Virus record (IMG/VR): IMGVR_UViG_3300035698_019318
Location: 1-28,009 of that record
Source of the DNA: a virus
Length of the DNA: 28,009 nt
Direction: 5' to 3' (one strand)
In this document: positions 11,676 through 25,928 of the stretch, in pieces
How the letters are laid out: every line of letters begins with the position of its first letter
Numbering within the stretch: position 1 is the stretch's first letter
Notes under the pieces: generated by a model
The model's input: only the letters and a program-made list of their open reading frames with translations
Told to the model about the DNA's origin: nothing
Database searches by the model: none
Position numbers and translations under genes: made by a program

Positions 11676-12908
11676 TTGCCATATTTAAAGGACAGCACAA
11701 GAATACAGATTTATTTTGGCGGATCCTCCTCCGGGAAATCTGTATTTTTGTCGCAAAGAGCAGTAGGTGATCTGCTCCGGGGCGGGCGCAACTATCTTAT
11801 TGTTCGAAATACCGCGGGCACAATCCGAACGTCTACGTTTAACGAGATCAAAAAAACTATATATGGGTGGGGCGTAGAGAAGCTATTCAGTGTTAACAAG
11901 TCTGACATGACTATAACCTGTGCGAACGGTTACCAGATCATATTTAAGGGGCTTGATGACGTACAAAAGATTAAGTCAGTCACTCCGGAAATTGGCGTTA
12001 TAACAGATATCTGGAATGAGGAGGCGACAGAAACAAAGCGAGAAGACGTGAAAGAATTACAGAAACGTCTCCGGGGAGTCTTGCCGACAAGATACAAACA
12101 TATCAAAAAAAGAATGACGCTAAGCTTCAATCCGATTTCACGTTCTCACTGGATTTATAAAGAGTATTTTGAAGGGAAATTCAAAGACAGCGATACATGT
12201 TACCGAGATGATAACTTACAAATACTCAAGACGACATATAAAAACAATAGATTTTTAACGAGTGAAGACAGGCGCGACCTCGAAAGCGAAAAAGACGAAT
12301 ATTACTACAAAGTTTATACCCTCGGCGAGTGGGGCGTTCTCGGCAACCTGGTCTTTAAAAACTGGCAGATAGCAGACCTCTCCGGGAAAGAGGGCATGTT
12401 TGACGTATTCAGGAACGGGCTTGATTTTGGTTTTACAAACGACCCGACAGCAGCACTCAGAACGGCGCGGCACAAGAAAGACCTTTATTTGCTCGGTGGC
12501 TTGTATGATTGGGGTCTAACTAATGACGTTATAGCGACCAGGCTAAAGCCAATAATCGGCAACGAAAATATATATTGTGATTCGGCAGAACCAAAAAGTA
12601 TAAGAGAGTTGCAACAATACGGCATAAGTGCTTACTCAGCACTCAAGGGAGCGGGATCGCTAAATTACGGTATCCAATGGATAAATCAGCACAATGTATT
12701 TATTGACAGACGGCTACAGGGTGTAATAAATGACTACTCTCTTTATCAATACCGGAAAAACAAAGACGGCGAAACACTGAACGAACCGATCGACAGAAAC
12801 AACCACGCGCCGGATGCGACCCGATACGCATGGAGCGATGTTTTAACGCAAGAACTTGATGGTATAAAGGGAATCAGCAAAAAGAGATCAGCAGTGAATG
12901 TATTTTAA
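11676..12908 (+). CDS. Terminase large subunit (start uncertain)
   Basis: This is the packaging motor ATPase and nuclease. Walker A is FGGSSSGKS, close to the N-terminus; Walker B is GVITDIWNEEATE; the coupling motif is LSFNPISRSHWIY. The nuclease domain has GLDFGFTNDPTAAL, IYCDSAEPKSIREL and NNHAPDATRYAW, carrying its acidic residues. TTG 11676 is the only canonical start but has no ribosome site. The same frame is open back to 11625 and encodes VIEPEIYNASYLPY, the strand normally found at the N-terminus of these proteins, with only ATC or ATA codons as possible starts. The true start is probably upstream and non-canonical, or a base is missing. Confidence 0.93.
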   Translation: MPYLKDSTRIQIYFGGSSSGKSVFLSQRAVGDLLRGGRNYLIVRNTAGTIRTSTFNEIKKTIYGWGVEKLFSVNKSDMTITCANGYQIIFKGLDDVQKIKSVTPEIGVITDIWNEEATETKREDVKELQKRLRGVLPTRYKHIKKRMTLSFNPISRSHWIYKEYFEGKFKDSDTCYRDDNLQILKTTYKNNRFLTSEDRRDLESEKDEYYYKVYTLGEWGVLGNLVFKNWQIADLSGKEGMFDVFRNGLDFGFTNDPTAALRTARHKKDLYLLGGLYDWGLTNDVIATRLKPIIGNENIYCDSAEPKSIRELQQYGISAYSALKGAGSLNYGIQWINQHNVFIDRRLQGVINDYSLYQYRKNKDGETLNEPIDRNNHAPDATRYAWSDVLTQELDGIKGISKKRSAVNVF

Positions 12909-12950: not shown

Positions 12951-14363
12951 TTGACTATAGAAGAAATATTAGCACTGGGCGATGACGAAAAAACCATCGC
13001 ATATTTAACGCCAGTGAATGACGACCTCGAGGTGGACAAGTGGCAGGGCGAATATGACGGCGTTCACGCCATCCTGAAGCGGGTCAACAAAACAGTGGGC
13101 ACGGGATCGGACCAAAAAACAGTAGTATTGAACAAAGAAGTTATAACGCTTCAAAAAAAAGTCACAGAAACAGCGGTAGCGTTTCTTCTCGGCAACCCCC
13201 CTACCTTAACACTAAAAAGCGAAGAAAAGAGCACAGGCGAGGCGTTTGCGCTGATAAATCGCACTATCAAACGTAATAAGTTAAGGTATGTCAATAAAAA
13301 AATCATGAGGGCGCTTTGTATCGAAACGCAAGCCGCCGAATTGTGGTACACGAAAGAAAATACAGGTAATGGCTCAGATAATACGGCAGCGAAATTCAGT
13401 CCCCGCGTAATGCTCTTGACGGCGAAAAACGGACATGAGATTTTCCCGCATTTCTCGACAACAGGAGACATGGATGCTTTTGCGGTCAAATATACAACAG
13501 CAGAATTGGTTGACGGCACTGAAAAAGCAATACAGCACGTAGATATTTACACAGATACAGACTTTGTATTTTTTACACAGGTCGAAGGAAGTTGGGCGAA
13601 AGAAACCCAAAAAAACCCGTATGGGAAAATCCCGGTAATTTATTATTCTCAAGAAGCTCCGGAGTGGAAAGATATACAGACATTAATCGACAGACTTGAA
13701 ATAGTGGTCAGTAAACACGCAGATACAAATGACTATTTTGCGTCACCAGCGGTGAAAGTCAAGGGCGAGATTGAGAACCCTCCAGACAAAGATGAGGCCG
13801 GAAAAGTTTTCAGATTAAACGGGTCAACATCAGTTGATGGCAAGGTGGAATATGGGGATATAGATTATATTACATGGAATCAATCACCTGATAGCGTAAA
13901 GCTGGAAATTGATACACTCAAAGAATTTATATACAGCCTTACTTCAACACCAGATATCTCCTTTAACAATGTAAAGGGGGTCGGGAACGTAAGCGGGATA
14001 GCATTGAAACTTATGTTTTTAGACGCTATACTTAAAGCGAATAATAAAGAGGAGATTTTTGGCGAGTGTTTTGAGCGCAGATATAATCTATTGAGAGCAA
14101 TGCTTTCTGTCACCGACAGCAAATTGGTAACCCAATTACAAGAGACTGATATAAATATAGAATTTCACAATCCATTGCCTGAAAACATCACGGAATTAAT
14201 TGAGAATTTAACAGTCGCGACAGGCGGCGAGTCTCTTATGTCACGCGAAACAGCAGTATCAAAAAATCCGCTTATTGATGATCCGGCAGAAGAGAATGAC
14301 AGAATGGCAACAGAGGACGCCGCCAGATCAGCCGCTCTTGTTGGTGACAGTTACAACTTGTAA
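12951..14363 (+). CDS. Portal protein, SPP1 gp6-like
   Basis: The dodecameric portal forms the DNA channel at one capsid vertex and docks the terminase. The protein begins TIEEILALGDDEKTIAYL and then has KEVITLQKKVTETAVAFLLGNPP, the usual clip/stem lead-in of SPP1-type portals; a middle stretch with YGKIPVIYYSQE and ETLKEFIYSL-like helices follows, ending in an acidic tail. At 470 aa it is a normal size. The start is TTG 12951 with GAGGAAAA just upstream. It follows the large terminase by 42 bp, the standard order. Confidence 0.9.
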   Translation: MTIEEILALGDDEKTIAYLTPVNDDLEVDKWQGEYDGVHAILKRVNKTVGTGSDQKTVVLNKEVITLQKKVTETAVAFLLGNPPTLTLKSEEKSTGEAFALINRTIKRNKLRYVNKKIMRALCIETQAAELWYTKENTGNGSDNTAAKFSPRVMLLTAKNGHEIFPHFSTTGDMDAFAVKYTTAELVDGTEKAIQHVDIYTDTDFVFFTQVEGSWAKETQKNPYGKIPVIYYSQEAPEWKDIQTLIDRLEIVVSKHADTNDYFASPAVKVKGEIENPPDKDEAGKVFRLNGSTSVDGKVEYGDIDYITWNQSPDSVKLEIDTLKEFIYSLTSTPDISFNNVKGVGNVSGIALKLMFLDAILKANNKEEIFGECFERRYNLLRAMLSVTDSKLVTQLQETDINIEFHNPLPENITELIENLTVATGGESLMSRETAVSKNPLIDDPAEENDRMATEDAARSAALVGDSYNL

Positions 14364-14397
14364 GAATAACAATAACATTTTGCACAAGGAAAAGAGA

Positions 14398-14778
14398 ATG
14401 AAAAACTCAGACAAAGATCGAGCAAAAGAGGCGGTGATAAATTACCTGAACGCAATGTCAAAAAAAGATTGGGAGTTGGTAAAAAAATATATACAGAAGA
14501 CGTGGATCGAGACGCGGAATAGCAAATATGTGCAGCAGTATATTGAGCAGATACATAAAACAGATGGGTGGGACGATATTGAGCGATATGAAGTGTTGAG
14601 TGCCAAGCCCAAAAGCGAAACCACGTGTGATGTTATCGTAAGGTTTTATCCTGTCAATAAAGAAGTTGAACCTTATGACCAGCGACACAGGGTAGTTTGC
14701 GAGAAAGCACCGTATTCCCCTTCTATATGGGGCGTGTGGGGTGTGAACCCCGCATCAGTACATAACTCGACTTTATAG
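14398..14778 (+). CDS. NTF2/SnoaL-like hypothetical protein (paralogue A)
   Basis: ATG 14398 has AAGGAAAAGAG upstream and gives 126 aa. The N-terminal helix AVINYLNAMSKKDWELVKKY followed by YIQKTW and then strands resembles small alpha+beta cone folds (NTF2/SnoaL-like). It resembles the protein at 15053: AxxYL...KDxxxxKKYxQxxW is shared. It sits between the portal and the MuF-type head gene, where extra genes are often inserted. The function is unknown. Confidence 0.7.
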   Translation: MKNSDKDRAKEAVINYLNAMSKKDWELVKKYIQKTWIETRNSKYVQQYIEQIHKTDGWDDIERYEVLSAKPKSETTCDVIVRFYPVNKEVEPYDQRHRVVCEKAPYSPSIWGVWGVNPASVHNSTL

Positions 14779-15052: not shown

Positions 15053-15448
15053 ATGCTACCAATATTATGGAGATGGTTTAAGTGTAAAAAAGCAGAAATG
15101 CAGGAAAAACAGAGAGTAATTGAAAATGTTGCTCACTATCTTACGACATTACACGCAAAAGATTACGAAGAAACCAAGAAATACGTACAGAGATCATGGC
15201 TCAAAAGACACCCCGGCAAAGAAGCCGACGAACGTCTCGCTGTGGCAAGGGAAAAAGCACTGATTACATCTGACTCTGTTGGTTTTGATATAAAATTATT
15301 ACGATTTGAAAGTGAAACGCTGGCGATTATCTCAGCGAGATTTATAGCAGACAACCGCAGGCTGGTAGAAAAACTCATTTGGGTAGAGAAAGAAAAAACG
15401 CCAAACAATCAAGACTTATGGTGTGTTATTCCTAATACTTGGTTTTAA
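15053..15448 (+). CDS. NTF2/SnoaL-like hypothetical protein (paralogue B)
   Basis: ATG 15053 follows GGGGA and lies 3 bp after the previous stop. After a basic/hydrophobic start (MLPILWRWFKCKKAEMQ) the helix VAHYLTTLHAKDYEETKKYV and QRSWLKRHP parallels paralogue A. The hydrophobic N-terminus could be a weak membrane anchor, or translation may begin at the internal Met16. The two paralogues with a small ORF between them suggest a local duplication followed by insertion. Confidence 0.7.
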   Translation: MLPILWRWFKCKKAEMQEKQRVIENVAHYLTTLHAKDYEETKKYVQRSWLKRHPGKEADERLAVAREKALITSDSVGFDIKLLRFESETLAIISARFIADNRRLVEKLIWVEKEKTPNNQDLWCVIPNTWF

Positions 15449-15478: not shown

Positions 15479-17383
15479 TTGGCAAGTGAATTAGATTACG
15501 AAAAGCAACACTTAAATGATATGCTCAGCTTAATCGGCAAAAATAACGGCAAAAACCTTTCTTCTTGTAACGGGAAGATTGCCAAAATGTTCAAACAATC
15601 TGCTAATAATATCGCAAAAGATATTGACAGATTTGTAAAGAACAGGGCGAAAAAAGGTTTAGCAAATATGCCGTATACGGGCGAGTTCTTCAAACGCAAT
15701 GCACAGATAGCCAAACAGATAGAACGAACGCTCACGGGGCTTCATGACGGCGTATACAAGAGCATTCAAGACGGTGCTGTATCTCAATGGAGTCTTGCAA
15801 ACGAGAAGTGGAATGGCATCGTAGTCGGCATGAGTAAGGGTGTGAAAATACCTGCGGGGCTTGCAACGTCTATGAATCAAATAAATATCACCGCCCTTAA
15901 TGCGTTTGTTAAGCGTTCCGACAAGGGACTTGACTTGAGCGGTCGTGTTTGGAATTTTGTTGATAATACCAGAGACCAGCTTGATACTTATTTGGGCGCA
16001 GGGATAGCCACAGGACGCAGTGCGAGAGCGATAAGCAGAGACATAAGACACTTGCTAAACGAGCCTGACAAGCTATTCAGGCGAGTGAGAGACGCGGACG
16101 GTAATCTTGTATTGAGCAAAGCCGCGAAAGCGTTTCATCCGGGGCGCGGCGTTTATCGCTCTTCATACAAGAACGCTCTTCGGACGGCAGCAACAGAAAC
16201 CAACATAGCATATAGATTATCGGATCACGAACGAAGAAAACAATTGCCGTTCGTGACCGGGTTCACTGTTCATTTAAGTCACTCCCACCCCCGCCTTGAT
16301 ATTTGTGATTCAATGGCGGGCGATTATCCTAAAAACTTTATATTCAGCGGCTGGCATCCCTGGTGCTTATGCTACACGACAGCGAAAATGCTTGATAAAA
16401 AAGATTTTGTCGCATATATAAAGAGCGGTAAATTTAATAAAAAAAGTAACGTCGCCGCCATTCCAAGGGCAGCAAAAATATATATTAATGCCAGAAAGCC
16501 AGCAATAAAGGGCATGGCAAAAAAGCCTTATTTTATTGAGGACAATTTTACTCCCGGGCTGGTGGTTAAAAAGAGTGTATTGACAACAGAAGTTCCCGAT
16601 TTACTCACAGGGAACATTTACAGCACAGAAACCGCCGCCATGGGGACAATGACAGTAGAACAGCAGATTGAGGCCGCTGCAATAAATGGCGATGTGACAG
16701 AAATTAATCGTATTACACGCAACAGCGGGATAAACAAATCATACAAAATGACAGTTGAAGGGTCTGGTGATTTTGTATTCAAGCCAGAGTTTGGGGAAGA
16801 TAGCTATTTGATCGACCGTGTTGGCGGAAGTCTTGCAGACAGGGAGCGGGCTGTTTATTTGATTGATAAAGAAATGGGAATAAACAGAGTACCCTTGACA
16901 GTCAAGCGTAAGGTAAACGGGAAAATTGGATCAGCACAACAGTGGGTTGATGCCGAAGAAGTGCTGAACAGTTTTTATGGTGAAAAAATACCTGTATGGA
17001 AGAAAAAAGAAACAGCAAAAATGCAGTTGTTTGATTTGTTGACACAGAATACCGACAGGCATCGTTTAAATTATCTAATCAACAAAAAAGAAAAAAAATA
17101 TGTATACATAGATAATGGACTGTCATTATTTGATAGCTTTGACCCGTCACCGCTCCATGAAGGTGAAAGAGTTCAGGTAAGAAATGCCTTTAAGCTCATG
17201 ACAAAAAAAGAGGTTGAAAGTTTTGCGCAGGGCTTAAAGAAAATAAGATCAGATGCATTTATAAAAACATTGGAAAATAGCAACATAGGAGAAAAAGCCA
17301 TAGAGGGCTTGAAGATAAGGGCAGATAATATAGAATATATATTACAAATGGAATACGCGGTCAAATGGAAAAGAAACCTGTAA
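15479..17383 (+). CDS. MuF/SPP1 gp7-type head protein fused to kinase-like domain
   Basis: Residues ~1-310 are a phage head morphogenesis (MuF-like) domain. Its end carries the metal-binding set C276 (LDICDSM), H293, C296 and C298 (HPWCLCY). A linker of ~90 residues follows. Residues ~395-625 resemble a protein/lipid-kinase fold: FVFKPEFGE with K435, DRERAVYLI with E456, NTDRHRLNYL with D526 and N531, and YVYIDNGLS with D545. Spacing D-x4-N and then D 14 residues later matches the catalytic loop and DFG Asp of kinases. The gene starts with TTG 15479 behind GGGGAG. MuF proteins enter the capsid in small copy number, so the kinase could be packaged and injected. Standard MuF proteins are about half as long. 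Confidence 0.85.
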   Translation: MASELDYEKQHLNDMLSLIGKNNGKNLSSCNGKIAKMFKQSANNIAKDIDRFVKNRAKKGLANMPYTGEFFKRNAQIAKQIERTLTGLHDGVYKSIQDGAVSQWSLANEKWNGIVVGMSKGVKIPAGLATSMNQINITALNAFVKRSDKGLDLSGRVWNFVDNTRDQLDTYLGAGIATGRSARAISRDIRHLLNEPDKLFRRVRDADGNLVLSKAAKAFHPGRGVYRSSYKNALRTAATETNIAYRLSDHERRKQLPFVTGFTVHLSHSHPRLDICDSMAGDYPKNFIFSGWHPWCLCYTTAKMLDKKDFVAYIKSGKFNKKSNVAAIPRAAKIYINARKPAIKGMAKKPYFIEDNFTPGLVVKKSVLTTEVPDLLTGNIYSTETAAMGTMTVEQQIEAAAINGDVTEINRITRNSGINKSYKMTVEGSGDFVFKPEFGEDSYLIDRVGGSLADRERAVYLIDKEMGINRVPLTVKRKVNGKIGSAQQWVDAEEVLNSFYGEKIPVWKKKETAKMQLFDLLTQNTDRHRLNYLINKKEKKYVYIDNGLSLFDSFDPSPLHEGERVQVRNAFKLMTKKEVESFAQGLKKIRSDAFIKTLENSNIGEKAIEGLKIRADNIEYILQMEYAVKWKRNL

Positions 17384-17622
17384 TGATTAGTATTACTGAC
17401 TACACGGGGAAAGAGCGATGCACAATAGAACTTATCAATAACAAGCTGGTTGCAAAATCGCAAGATCCGGGATTCGAGGAGATGATACAAAACATGCTCG
17501 ATAAAGATAAATTGCTCCCGAAAAACCCGGCAGAAGCTTACGCAGCAATACCGCACCGGTACTCAAATTTGTCAAGATATGCGTTCGAACAAGTTGATGG
17601 CAAACACAAAAGGAGAAAGTAG
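17383..17622 (+). CDS. Small hypothetical protein, 79 aa
   Basis: I place the start at ATG 17383 in a TAATG overlap with the head protein, with GGAAAAG just upstream; an ATG at 17365 would add 6 residues. The sequence starts with strands (MISITDYTGKERCTIELINNKLVAK) and continues with a helix and a basic tail ending KHKRRK. I do not recognise it. Coupling to the MuF-kinase gene makes an accessory role plausible. Confidence 0.65.
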   Translation: MISITDYTGKERCTIELINNKLVAKSQDPGFEEMIQNMLDKDKLLPKNPAEAYAAIPHRYSNLSRYAFEQVDGKHKRRK

Positions 17623-17625
17623 TTT

Positions 17626-18573
17626 ATGAACAAACCAAAACTTGCAGTAATTTGCCTGAAAAGCCTGGATAATTTTCTCGAATGGACTGAATATATTGAT
17701 CAGTTCGAGACAAAAATTTTTGTGGTATCTTCAGAGAAGGATGTAGAGGACGCGATTGCGTGGGGTGATTATATCTGGTTTGAGTGGGCAAATGACGTTG
17801 CGATATCGGGAACACGAATGATAGCAAGAACACCGGGCAAAAAAAAGAAAGTCTTTGTCAGGCTCCACCGTTATGAGGCATTTACGCAAATGCCTGCAAA
17901 CATTTCATGGTCTCAAGTCGATGGTCTTATATTTGTTGCTGAACATATCCGGGAAACGGTACGCAACCAAGGCGGTTTTTCTATACCGCGCCGAGTGAAG
18001 CAAACAGTTATATATAATGGCGTAGACCACGAAAACATTGATATTGTCGGCAAAGGACACATGTTTGATATTGCTGTCGTGTCAAGTATTAATAGCCGAA
18101 AAAACCCACAGCTTGTTTTACCGATAGCCCGAATGTTAAAAGATATTGATGACGAGTTTAGAATACATTGGGCAGGAGCTATTCAAGATGCTCAGTTCGG
18201 CGGATATCTAAAATACATGACAGCAGAAATGGGGCTTAATGATAACATTGTATTTTATGGACACCTGTCACGTGAAAAGATGGACAAGTTTTGGGCTGAC
18301 AAGGGCGCGCTCTTACACACATCCATTCATGAAGGGCACAGCGTGGCAGTGCTCGAAGCGGCGGCACGGGGAATACGCCCGGTTATCCATAATTTTGATG
18401 GGGCGAAAGCCTTATACCCCAAAGAATGGCTATTTAATACACCTGAAGATGCCGCCGATTCGCTCTGGCTCGATGGGGCGCACGGGCAGGAAATAAGGCA
18501 AGTGATCATTGACAGTGGCTATACGATAAAAGCCCAGGTCGAAGCAATTGAAACGTTTTTGCTGGAGGTATAA
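17626..18573 (+). CDS. Glycosyltransferase, GT4 family
   Basis: GT4 retaining enzymes use nucleotide sugars to modify various acceptors. The 315-aa protein has an N-terminal Rossmann half beginning LAVICLKSLDN, an inter-domain stretch with TVIYNGVDHENI (typical 'NGVD' of GT4) and a C-terminal Rossmann half with AVVSSINSRKNPQLVL and HTSIHEGHSVAVLEAAARG, the E-x7-E motif (E236, E244). The start at ATG 17626 has AAGGAG at 17611-17616. No signal or membrane segment is evident. Its location inside the head operon suggests that it glycosylates a virion protein or DNA in the infected cell; the target is unknown. Confidence 0.85.
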   Translation: MNKPKLAVICLKSLDNFLEWTEYIDQFETKIFVVSSEKDVEDAIAWGDYIWFEWANDVAISGTRMIARTPGKKKKVFVRLHRYEAFTQMPANISWSQVDGLIFVAEHIRETVRNQGGFSIPRRVKQTVIYNGVDHENIDIVGKGHMFDIAVVSSINSRKNPQLVLPIARMLKDIDDEFRIHWAGAIQDAQFGGYLKYMTAEMGLNDNIVFYGHLSREKMDKFWADKGALLHTSIHEGHSVAVLEAAARGIRPVIHNFDGAKALYPKEWLFNTPEDAADSLWLDGAHGQEIRQVIIDSGYTIKAQVEAIETFLLEV

Positions 18574-20831: not shown

Positions 20832-21965
20832 ATGGAAAATAGTGTTTTAAATGAATTTAGCAAAAAGAACGCGGAAGCATACCTGCGAGTACTTGATTAT
20901 ATGCAGGGTTTCGCATTCACCAGCTTGTTCCCCTGGCAGCCGAATCCGACTATCAGCTACGAGACGATATCAGGCATAAAGGGGCTTATCGTAGCTGCTG
21001 ATGTTGTTGGGTGGAACTCACCGGCTCCGCTCAAGTCACGTAAAGTCTTGAGTGTTCTCAAGGGAGAAATTCCTTCTGTTCGCGTTAAGCGGTCAATGAC
21101 CGAAAAAGACATGAATAAGCTTATCGGTTTTCGCGCGATGGCGAGCACGGCGGGACATAAAGCGATCCTGGACATGATCTATAATGATATAGATTTTGTC
21201 GTCAAGGGCTGTCTCGGTCGTCTCGAATGGCTTGCTTATCAAGCCCTGTCTAATCTTAAGGTTTCCCTGACATCTTCAAACAATGGCAACGGGACCGTGA
21301 CCGAGCATGATATTGATTTTCAAATGCCTGCGGCAAATAAGAGAGCACTAGAAACAGGAACAGCCACAAGAGCATGGGACACGGGTACGGCAGCACAGCT
21401 TTTCCCCATCACTGATATTATTGCTGTAGTAAAGGCGGGTAAAGCCATCGGCTTGCGTTTCGGGAAAATATATATGAATGATACGCAGTGGGCTCAGTTT
21501 GTTTCGGCAACGCAGGTAATTAATCTTTGCGCGCCCTATATGGGAGCGGGCAACCTGCATACCGCTTCTTTCGCACCCACCCCATCGGTTGAAGCCGCAA
21601 ACGCTTTTTTGAAGTCTCAGAGATTGCCGCAAATTGAAATAGTTGACCGGCAGGTGATTTCAGAAAATATTGAATACGCCCAGACCACACTTGATGTATG
21701 GACTGATAATTATATTCTGTTTGCACCTGCGGGGCCGCTCGGTTACATGCTACATGCACCGATGGCGGAGGAAGTGTTTGGCGTAAATGGTAACGGCACG
21801 CAACTAAAGAAAAACAACGTGCTTGTCACCAAATTCTCACAGCCCGACCCTCTCCAGGAGTTTACAAAAGGCGAGATTAACGCCTTCCCGTCATGGAGTT
21901 CAGTTAATTCCTGTATGCGCCTTGATGTTTGTGAAGTGGCAGCAGACGGGCTTGAGGCTTCTTAA
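20832..21965 (+). CDS. Major capsid protein (HK97 fold, gpE-like)
   Basis: This 377-aa protein has features of the lambda gpE-type major capsid family: an N-terminal segment ending FTSLFPWQPNPTISYETISG, followed by VVGWNSPAPLKSRK, then IPSVRVKRSMTEKDM and the helix AILDMIYNDIDFVVKG. Domain segments such as RFGKIYMNDTQWAQF, LPQIEIVDRQV and DNYILFAPAGPLGYMLHA match the usual end of the family. ATG 20832 has AAGGAG upstream. Its high expression is supported by the strong ribosome site. Confidence 0.9.
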   Translation: MENSVLNEFSKKNAEAYLRVLDYMQGFAFTSLFPWQPNPTISYETISGIKGLIVAADVVGWNSPAPLKSRKVLSVLKGEIPSVRVKRSMTEKDMNKLIGFRAMASTAGHKAILDMIYNDIDFVVKGCLGRLEWLAYQALSNLKVSLTSSNNGNGTVTEHDIDFQMPAANKRALETGTATRAWDTGTAAQLFPITDIIAVVKAGKAIGLRFGKIYMNDTQWAQFVSATQVINLCAPYMGAGNLHTASFAPTPSVEAANAFLKSQRLPQIEIVDRQVISENIEYAQTTLDVWTDNYILFAPAGPLGYMLHAPMAEEVFGVNGNGTQLKKNNVLVTKFSQPDPLQEFTKGEINAFPSWSSVNSCMRLDVCEVAADGLEAS

Positions 21966-24541: not shown

Positions 24542-24720
24542 TCGGGACAGTTGTTAAATATTACAGATTTTCATGGAATGAGGTGCTATGCGAAATATCA
24601 TTTACAAATATACTAATGCTCATGAAGTCGATACCGGAACACAAGAAAAGCGAGGACGCCGGCGGCAAGATAGCGGTGGAAGAAATAAACAGTATCGAAG
24701 AGCTAAACGGGCTTTTTTAG
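24050..24720 (+). CDS. Tail assembly chaperone -1 frameshift product (gpGT-like)
   Basis: The frame-0 ORF up to 24457 continues in the -1 frame to TAG 24718, giving about 223 aa (136 + 87). The -1 frame is open well upstream of the slip site and encodes HPNIWRIIGTVVKYYRFSWN, EVLCEISFTNILMLMKSIPEH and a charged end (VEEINSIEELNGLF). The 'FSWxxVLxxISxxNIxML' pattern is characteristic of the C-terminal domain of frameshifted tail chaperones. This is established biology in lambda (gpG/gpGT), applied here by inference. The extension lacks its own start and would be lost without frameshifting. It overlaps the GT2 gene from 24588. Confidence 0.75.
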
Positions 24721-25928
24721 CGAAAAACAGAAAAAAGCGATCGGCACAGTATGAACTCAGTATATGTATGATAGTCAAAAACGAAGAAAAAAACTTGCCT
24801 CGGTGCCTTGAAAGTCTTCGCCCATTGCTGACTATGGATTGGTGCCAATTGATTGTAGTCGATACGGGAAGCACAGACAATACAGTAAAAATTGCGAACA
24901 AATACACCGATAATGTTACAAAAAAAGACTTTACTCCATGGAATTTTTCTGTGGCGCGAAATTATTGTGTTGGCATGGCGCGGGGGAAAAGAATCATGAC
25001 CATTGATGCGGATGAAGAGCTTATCCCGGGAAGTGCGGAAAATATAAAGACAGTACTGCTTAACCCAAAATGCGAAGAGTTCAAAACCGTTTTTGTATCA
25101 ATACATAATATATATACGCAAGACCACAACCAATATACAGAGTTCATGCAGGCGCGCATGTTTATAAATGATAGACAGCCAATATATACGAGAAAAACCC
25201 ACAACAAACCACGCTCCGAAACACCTTATTTAATTGCAGACAATATAATTTTTAATCATTACGGGTATTTATGGGAAGGCGATCCAGAGCTTGCAAAAAA
25301 GAAAATACTCGAACGGTCTCTTCCTATGCTGCTCAGTGAATACGAGACAGATCCCACAGACCTTCACGTTATAAATCACATTTCTAAGTCTTACTATGCC
25401 CTTCGGGATTATCCTAAAACTATCGAGTACGGCGAATTGTGGATAAAGCTCATGGAAAACACAGAGTATCACATCGGCTGGTATGCACATTTATCTGTAA
25501 TTATCCATCTTGTGGCGTCATATGTGGCGAGCGGAGATATAGAAAATGCCGAGCGTATTACAGGTATCGCAGAAGAGAAGTATTCGAAGCGGCTTATTGA
25601 TGTGTATATAATGCTCGGAAATTATTACGCGGGGAAAGATGACGATAAAGCGGCAGCACTGTTTGAATACGCGATTGACCTTAGTAAAGAAGACCCGGAC
25701 AATCACGAATATATGTTATGCGTAAATTACAAGATGAACATACCAACAATTTATAATTGGCTTGCGGTATATTTTTTCAGAAAAAAAGATTTTGAATTGT
25801 CCGGTGAATATTTGAATGGTGGGATAGAAACCCTTTACGGTCGTCTTACCATGCGATGGGATATTTTTAACGAAACAAGAGCACACGAACAGCTTATTGA
25901 TAAAACTACTGAACTTATGAAGGTATAG
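24588..25928 (+). CDS. Glycosyltransferase GT2 with TPR-like C-terminus
   Basis: After a basic, Arg/Lys-rich 58-residue N-terminus, the GT-A domain begins LSICMIVKNEEKNLPRCLES and includes LIVVDTGSTDNTVKIA and TIDADEELIPGS, whose DAD (residues 140-142) is the metal/nucleotide-sugar motif. From about residue 235 the chain is helical with TPR-like repeats (YYALRDYPKTIEYGELWIKL, AALFEYAIDLSKEDPDN), common in glycosyltransferases that act on proteins. The only in-frame starts are ATG 24588 (AGG four bases upstream) and ATG 24768, which would remove the first strand. The first 133 bp are shared with the chaperone extension in another frame. The acceptor is unknown; virion proteins are likely. Confidence 0.85.
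   Translation: MRNIIYKYTNAHEVDTGTQEKRGRRRQDSGGRNKQYRRAKRAFLAKNRKKRSAQYELSICMIVKNEEKNLPRCLESLRPLLTMDWCQLIVVDTGSTDNTVKIANKYTDNVTKKDFTPWNFSVARNYCVGMARGKRIMTIDADEELIPGSAENIKTVLLNPKCEEFKTVFVSIHNIYTQDHNQYTEFMQARMFINDRQPIYTRKTHNKPRSETPYLIADNIIFNHYGYLWEGDPELAKKKILERSLPMLLSEYETDPTDLHVINHISKSYYALRDYPKTIEYGELWIKLMENTEYHIGWYAHLSVIIHLVASYVASGDIENAERITGIAEEKYSKRLIDVYIMLGNYYAGKDDDKAAALFEYAIDLSKEDPDNHEYMLCVNYKMNIPTIYNWLAVYFFRKKDFELSGEYLNGGIETLYGRLTMRWDIFNETRAHEQLIDKTTELMKV

Follow-up and report, generated by a model that had tools for sequence, protein, structure and literature searches.

IMG/VR virus record IMGVR_UViG_3300035698_019318, a 28,009-base linear virus record which we analysed over its whole length and refer to as the window, contains a 634-amino-acid gene in which a MuF minor head domain is joined to an atypical kinase domain with an intact catalytic set, followed by an overlapping open reading frame (ORF) of 85 amino acids. 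We think it rather probable that this gene encodes a virion-packaged effector, with the kinase as cargo and the small ORF as its cognate partner. A kinase-like domain on a MuF head protein had been claimed in an earlier note on this DNA for positions 16600-17383, that is, the right half of the gene at 15479-17383. Sequence profiles, structure prediction and structure comparison all bore this out, and the residues named there (K435, E456, D526-x4-N531 and D545) are exact in the numbering of the 634-residue, TTG-start ORF. The partner gene and the recurrence of such kinases in other phages are additions to that note.

The kinase domain

Of the established families, the domain matched TIGR03843 (E=3e-16, 59.4 bits, far under the 172.4-bit cut-off), PF00454 PI3_PI4_kinase (E=5.7e-6, 26.9 bits, just below the cut-off of 27.1) and phrog_3162 (5.6e-8). 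A profile of 76 phage kinase domains, from which the window had been left out, matched a single one of the 330 window ORFs, namely that of the MuF-kinase gene (Table 1). The catalytic set, consisting of a lysine, a glutamate, D-x4-N and a second aspartate, is present. K435 and E456, neither of which was prescribed by our search, are kept in 76 of the 77 aligned relatives and in all 25 MuF-fused ones, and two further residues, D519 and R614, are conserved in 73/77 and 71/77, respectively. N524, D526, R527, H528, N531, D545 and G547 are invariant in the relatives but were fixed by the DNA search pattern, making them non-independent evidence.

For the structure of the domain, AlphaFold2 with a 77-row alignment produced a model with a predicted local distance difference test score (pLDDT) of 88.3 and a predicted template modelling score of 0.86; run without an alignment, it gave an unusable model (pLDDT 45). 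VIA-align placed PI4KII-beta at the top (Z 19.7, 221 residues, 3.5 Å), followed by Fam20 (17.2), CtkA (16.0), HipT (13.1), CotH (12.0) and HipA (11.6), with 13-22% identity in the structural alignments. Profile matches in the PDB were to PI4KII (1.2e-17) and Fam20C (1.6e-9), and among the structural matches in BFVD are uncultured Caudovirales proteins bearing the names portal, head morphogenesis and PI3/4-kinase. The comparison with HipA, PI3/4-kinase-like and Fam20 folds that the earlier note had proposed found a kinase fold, and the opposite outcome did not occur. Spanning about residues 390-630, the domain is thus predicted to have an atypical protein-kinase-like fold of the PI4KII/Fam20C/HipA type, with four helices in the model beyond the D-x-G segment (domain residues 192-263).

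Neither single-protein searches of viral contigs, for the domain or the whole protein, nor a two-sequence alignment search of the same contigs returned close or kinase relatives, respectively. A whole-protein search of genome contigs yielded one MuF relative, without the kinase. Across 395 Bacteroidota genomes, a protein search gave no domain matches, and TIGR03843 matched just twice and weakly; one of these two matches (L012) is a short chromosomal frame with no head protein. We did not count MT835969 as a phage kinase, its scaffold bearing an actinobacterial-type SCO1664 operon. On this human-gut "phage" scaffold (MT835969.1, locus L002), an actinobacterial-type chromosomal stretch (histidine phosphatase, DUF3090-like, SCO1664) lies beside unrelated DNA, and the scaffold is likely chimeric.

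The MuF slot, the partner gene and their recurrence

The MuF half, residues 1 to about 365, was assigned by its PHROG matches and by synteny (TerL, portal, MuF, major capsid protein). In addition to the matches in Table 1, of which phrog_16625 is that of Bxa, it matched phrog_7625 (head morphogenesis) at 3e-35; Pfam PF04233 did not reach E=1 on the window head protein. In an alignment with seven phage MuF proteins, C276, H293, C296 and C298 are invariant, and the family motif P-Y-F-I-x-D-N closes the domain at residues 350-356.

About half of 80 MuF relatives taken from viral contigs end after the MuF domain, and the remainder fall into at least 13 clusters of differing C-termini, including ADP-ribosyltransferases, CdiA_C, glutamine amidase (Gln_amidase), probable metallopeptidases with HExxH-like motifs, and unknowns. 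The kinase domain was found in none of the 80, a deep kinase profile included, and the nearest relative (L004, 41-46% identical) terminates directly after the MuF domain. Because the near relatives either end after MuF or carry other C-termini, we regard the kinase as a cargo domain in a polymorphic slot. Such a slot agrees with the MuF polymorphic toxins described in passages of PMC5576092 and PMC11699363. The latter passages present Bxa as an ADP-ribosyltransferase head protein of a Bacteroides prophage, with an ADP-ribosylglycohydrolase gene near its MuF gene; we likewise found such a gene near the MuF gene of Porphyromonas phage005. In three other loci (L039:4028-5668, L040:2936-5041 and L126:2853-5987), the MuF protein is split near the C-x-C region by intein- or Hint-looking sequence, and Pfam Intein_splicing matches two kinase-bearing proteins.

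Downstream of MuF-kinase genes, we repeatedly saw an ORF of 80-100 amino acids overlapping or abutting the kinase stop codon. An iterated profile seeded with one such ORF and built without the window gathered 90 ORFs (71 distinct sequences) among the matches listed, of which 87 immediately follow a kinase gene in the same orientation. The MuF control loci, which had been chosen without the motif (L002-L093), contained none. The window contained a single match, ORF 17329-17619 (the gene at 17365-17622), scoring 12.7 bits as compared to 7.4 bits for the best of 8731 control ORFs, and hhalign linked it to the family with a probability of 82% (Table 1). No Pfam or PDB family matched. By profile comparison, the 85-residue ORF belongs to a previously undescribed small family encoded downstream of such kinases, which is new here. 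A further example, found without the motif scan, is Brevibacterium plasmid pAP13, where an SCO1664-like kinase is followed by an 89-residue gene that scores 21.9 bits with the partner profile. In Myxococcus phage Mx1 (L305:4864-7048), an annotated kinase belonging to the family studied here is followed by a 103-residue gene from another small family; similar small genes follow the kinases of L123 and L203, pointing to a second, different partner family.

In L230, L193 and L255, the kinase forms the end of the portal protein, while the next, overlapping frame encodes the partner and then MuF. Portal and MuF are adjacent in the particle of SPP1-like phages. Since these fusions put kinase and partner on particle neighbours, the two are probably adjacent in the particle as well. 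As judged from predicted genes, they stay adjacent in gene order whichever head protein carries them.

To collect such kinases, IMG/VR was scanned twice with a degenerate DNA pattern for N-x-D-R-H-x2-N ... D-x-G, yielding at least about 210 loci, in which an iterated profile search recognized at least about 170 distinct kinases. The pattern selects intact catalytic loops, which puts the share of degenerate kinases outside its reach, and the counts describe the scan, not nature. Among the matches listed are 86 kinases that we call extended, with >200 residues ahead of the kinase domain; 25 of these have Pfam Phage_Mu_F (PF04233), 4 Phage_min_cap2 and approximately 6 a portal domain, with consistent PHROG labels. 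The MuF match is in-frame with the kinase, as judged by open-frame length, in about 25 of the loci listed; metagenomic ORF starts were taken as predicted, and some fusions may reflect frame errors. On the kinase tree, parsimony asks for 12 changes of the MuF carrier, of which well-supported branches force at least 3, and the window kinase sits on a long divergent branch with no firm position. Other carriers of kinase and partner are portals and phage proteins of very large size. That many phages bear the pair on head proteins suggests a virion-borne kinase which may act on the cell it has entered.

Two of these loci show additional inserted or preceding stretches. In one MuF-kinase (L128:2083-4839), a homing-endonuclease-like stretch (HNH PHROGs, residues 384-556) lies between MuF and kinase. 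The other is a polyvalent protein (L246:9508-12876), a 1123-residue kinase ORF in which RNA-ligase-like and phosphoheptose-isomerase-like stretches precede the kinase, with the partner in the next frame.

A proposed delivered effector and its alternatives

In the explanation we favor, the MuF half would seat the protein inside the capsid near the portal, and the partner would keep the kinase switched off inside the virion or the cell that produces it, serving as immunity or as a safety catch. At infection, the kinase would pass into the new cell together with the DNA or ahead of it and phosphorylate host proteins, as HipA-fold kinases do, resulting in host takeover or inhibition of competitors. 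Packaging, ejection and action on host proteins are steps we infer from the MuF family. T4 Alt and the N4 RNA polymerase are virion-delivered enzymes that act ahead of any phage gene expression. A kinase family delivered in many phages would amount to a widespread and so far unstudied means of taking over the host or of competing, for which the partner gene offers a direct experimental handle. More tentatively, atypical kinase and dedicated small partner could form a portable two-gene cassette, grafted by many unrelated phages onto MuF or portal proteins; both products might then ride in the virion and be released into the next cell as a virion-borne kinase switch.

Several points weigh against an effector with a cognate partner. 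The record behind the window, 28 kb long, is an incomplete contig for which our searches found no close relatives, and the window's partner match is weak on its own (12.7 bits, <25% identity to any member). Moreover, among the matches listed, the partner was found after only 55 of 108 extended and 13 of 62 short kinases, although kinases without a matched partner are in some cases followed by other short ORFs, and Mx1 has its unrelated small gene in that place.

A narrower version of the same idea, which we regard as possible but not likely, is a MuF polymorphic antibacterial toxin: the kinase would act against competing bacteria or non-lysogens, and the 85-residue gene would protect the lysogen. 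Both the homology of the N-terminal half with the MuF of Bxa and the polymorphic C-termini of the MuF relatives are in line with this. However, the presence of kinase and partner on portals and very large phage proteins would equally fit host takeover, and the partner-MuF fusion in some phages suggests a virion role beyond lysogen protection only. A search for a phage integrase (PF00589) in the 28 kb fragment was also negative, which makes a temperate life style no more than a possibility. The toxin and takeover versions differ in who benefits and are inseparable on present data. As described in passages of PMC11699363 and PMC5576092, Bxa and the Bacteroidales MuF polymorphic toxins share with the window protein a homologous MuF half, a location after the portal, an enzymatic C-terminus and a small ORF directly downstream. 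In contrast to the ADP-ribosyltransferase, glutamine deaminase or alarmone synthetase of those toxins, the window C-terminus is a kinase, and its partner, with a putative immunity role, belongs to a different small family.

It seems unlikely that the kinase is expressed late and acts in the producing cell, for instance in superinfection exclusion together with the neighbouring glycosyltransferase. This follows a proposal of superinfection immunity for a HipA-like kinase reported earlier in Gratiaviridae Bacteroides phages (passages of PMC8008677), which resembles ours in its HipA fold, its position in the interval between portal and major capsid genes, its occurrence in Bacteroidetes phages and a nearby glycosyltransferase. 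Unlike our case, the description in those passages mentions neither a head-protein (MuF) fusion nor a partner gene. The window kinase and the head protein form a single polypeptide, an arrangement superfluous for an enzyme free in the cytoplasm; such fusions turn up repeatedly, involving portals as well as several types of MuF; and glycosyltransferase homologs also follow MuF in kinase-free loci, e.g., L016, L019 and L020. In the light of our analysis, the HipA-like kinase that gut phages encode between their portal and capsid genes could be read differently.

We also consider it improbable that the enzyme serves virion maturation or assembly by phosphorylating capsid, portal or partner. While the portal and MuF fusions, along with the partner-MuF fusion, do put the enzyme and a possible substrate on head proteins, the closest MuF relatives are without the kinase, others have toxin-like domains at that position, and the pair also exists on a plasmid and with short kinases that lack a long N-terminal extension. 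The absence of the domain from near relatives and the covalent link between enzyme and head protein make a maturation or late superinfection role the poorer fit. That a partner gene exists and that other phages carry the fusion too both speak for a delivered effector having a cognate regulator rather than for a maturation enzyme private to this virion.

With PI4KII as the nearest solved structures, the domain might instead phosphorylate a lipid or small molecule. We doubt this, too: the protein kinases Fam20C and CtkA, both of which phosphorylate proteins, score close behind, and fold similarity does not yield the substrate. The window kinase shares fold and catalytic residues with PI4KII, Fam20C, CtkA and the HipA/HipT toxins but differs from them in its low identity and its place on a head protein. 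An inactive remnant or chance resemblance, as might be suggested by the lack of close relatives, is very improbable given that the protein, at the tip of a long divergent branch, retains every catalytic residue and an intact 634-residue frame.

The passages found in PMC5512222, PMC11699363, PMC5576092, PMC3482391 and PMC8008677 (open-access literature) describe no kinase of this type fused to MuF or to a portal. The polyvalent-protein kinases and MuF-zeta-toxin-like kinase fusions in passages of PMC5512222 are comparable in that a kinase or phosphotransferase domain is part of a phage protein believed to enter the host by delivery. Yet these belong to a group without a C-terminal subdomain, or are zeta toxins, whereas the window domain is predicted to be PI4KII/Fam20C/HipA-like with C-terminal helices, a retained subdomain that would set it apart from the polyvalent kinase group; HipA or PI3/4-kinase goes unmentioned in the main-text passages of that paper. 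The actinobacterial TIGR03843/SCO1664 family, the best sequence family match, has the start, lysine, glutamate and catalytic loop in common with the window domain, and its SCO1664-like relative on the Brevibacterium plasmid also has the partner. However, the window domain scores far under the family cut-off, and the SCO1664-type example in L002 is a stand-alone protein without a counterpart of N531. As for a HipB-type antitoxin, no helix-turn-helix family was found in the scanned neighbours 14275-14778, 15053-15448, 17365-17622 and 17626-18573.

Gene context of the window

TerL, portal, head-morphogenesis protein, major head protein and tape measure follow each other in the gene order usual for a siphovirus, with the MuF-kinase gene between the portal and major capsid genes and three small genes separating portal from MuF. 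The phage proteins closest to the head protein, from Porphyromonas, Riemerella and Bacteroides phages, show 33-41% identity to it, confined to parts of its first ~410 residues; based on these matches, the host is probably a member of the Bacteroidota.

Table 1. Features of the window, with the MuF-kinase module first and its neighbours below
Feature	Position	Strand	Basis or remark
MuF-kinase gene, 634 aa (amino acids), TTG start	15479..17383	+	ORF; MuF PHROGs; window-free kinase profile E=1.6e-47
MuF minor-head domain, aa 1-369	15479..16585	+	phrog_35295 5e-73, phrog_16625 9.7e-50; alignment with 7 phage MuF proteins
Atypical (PI4KII/Fam20C/HipA-like) kinase domain, aa 370-634	16586..17380	+	sequence profiles, predicted structure, structure comparison
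K435, predicted ATP-phosphate lysine	16781..16783	+	76/77 relatives, outside search pattern
E456, predicted lysine-pairing glutamate	16844..16846	+	76/77 relatives, outside search pattern
D526-R-H-x-x-N531 catalytic loop	17054..17071	+	invariant, but part of search pattern
D545-N-G547 metal-binding motif	17111..17119	+	invariant, but part of search pattern
Partner gene, 85 aa, start overlaps kinase stop by 19 nt	17365..17622	+	window-free profile 12.7 bits, E=0.002; hhalign P=1e-5
TerL	11676-12908		siphovirus-order head region
Portal protein	12951..14363	+	SPP1_portal 5.6e-63
Glycosyltransferase adjoining the module (context; not claimed as part of it)	17626..18573	+	Glycos_transf_1 1.6e-13
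Major head protein	20832..21965	+	phrog_29 8.5e-40
Tape measure	25933-end

Two of the small genes between portal and MuF (14275-14778 and 15053-15448) are paralogous (26% identity, 1e-7), and the product of the first matches the TcaA_5th NTF2-like domain. Homologs of the first gene occupy the equivalent position in MuF loci L016, L021, L022, L048, L056, L057 and L091, which is why we assign the two genes to the head region and not to the kinase. As immunity candidates, these upstream NTF2-like genes were dropped, the first having homologs there in kinase-free MuF loci.

Homologs of the adjoining glycosyltransferase (17626-18573), 35-42% identical, are located after MuF in L016, L018, L019 and L020. 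A second glycosyltransferase gene lies within the structural operon at 24588-25928.
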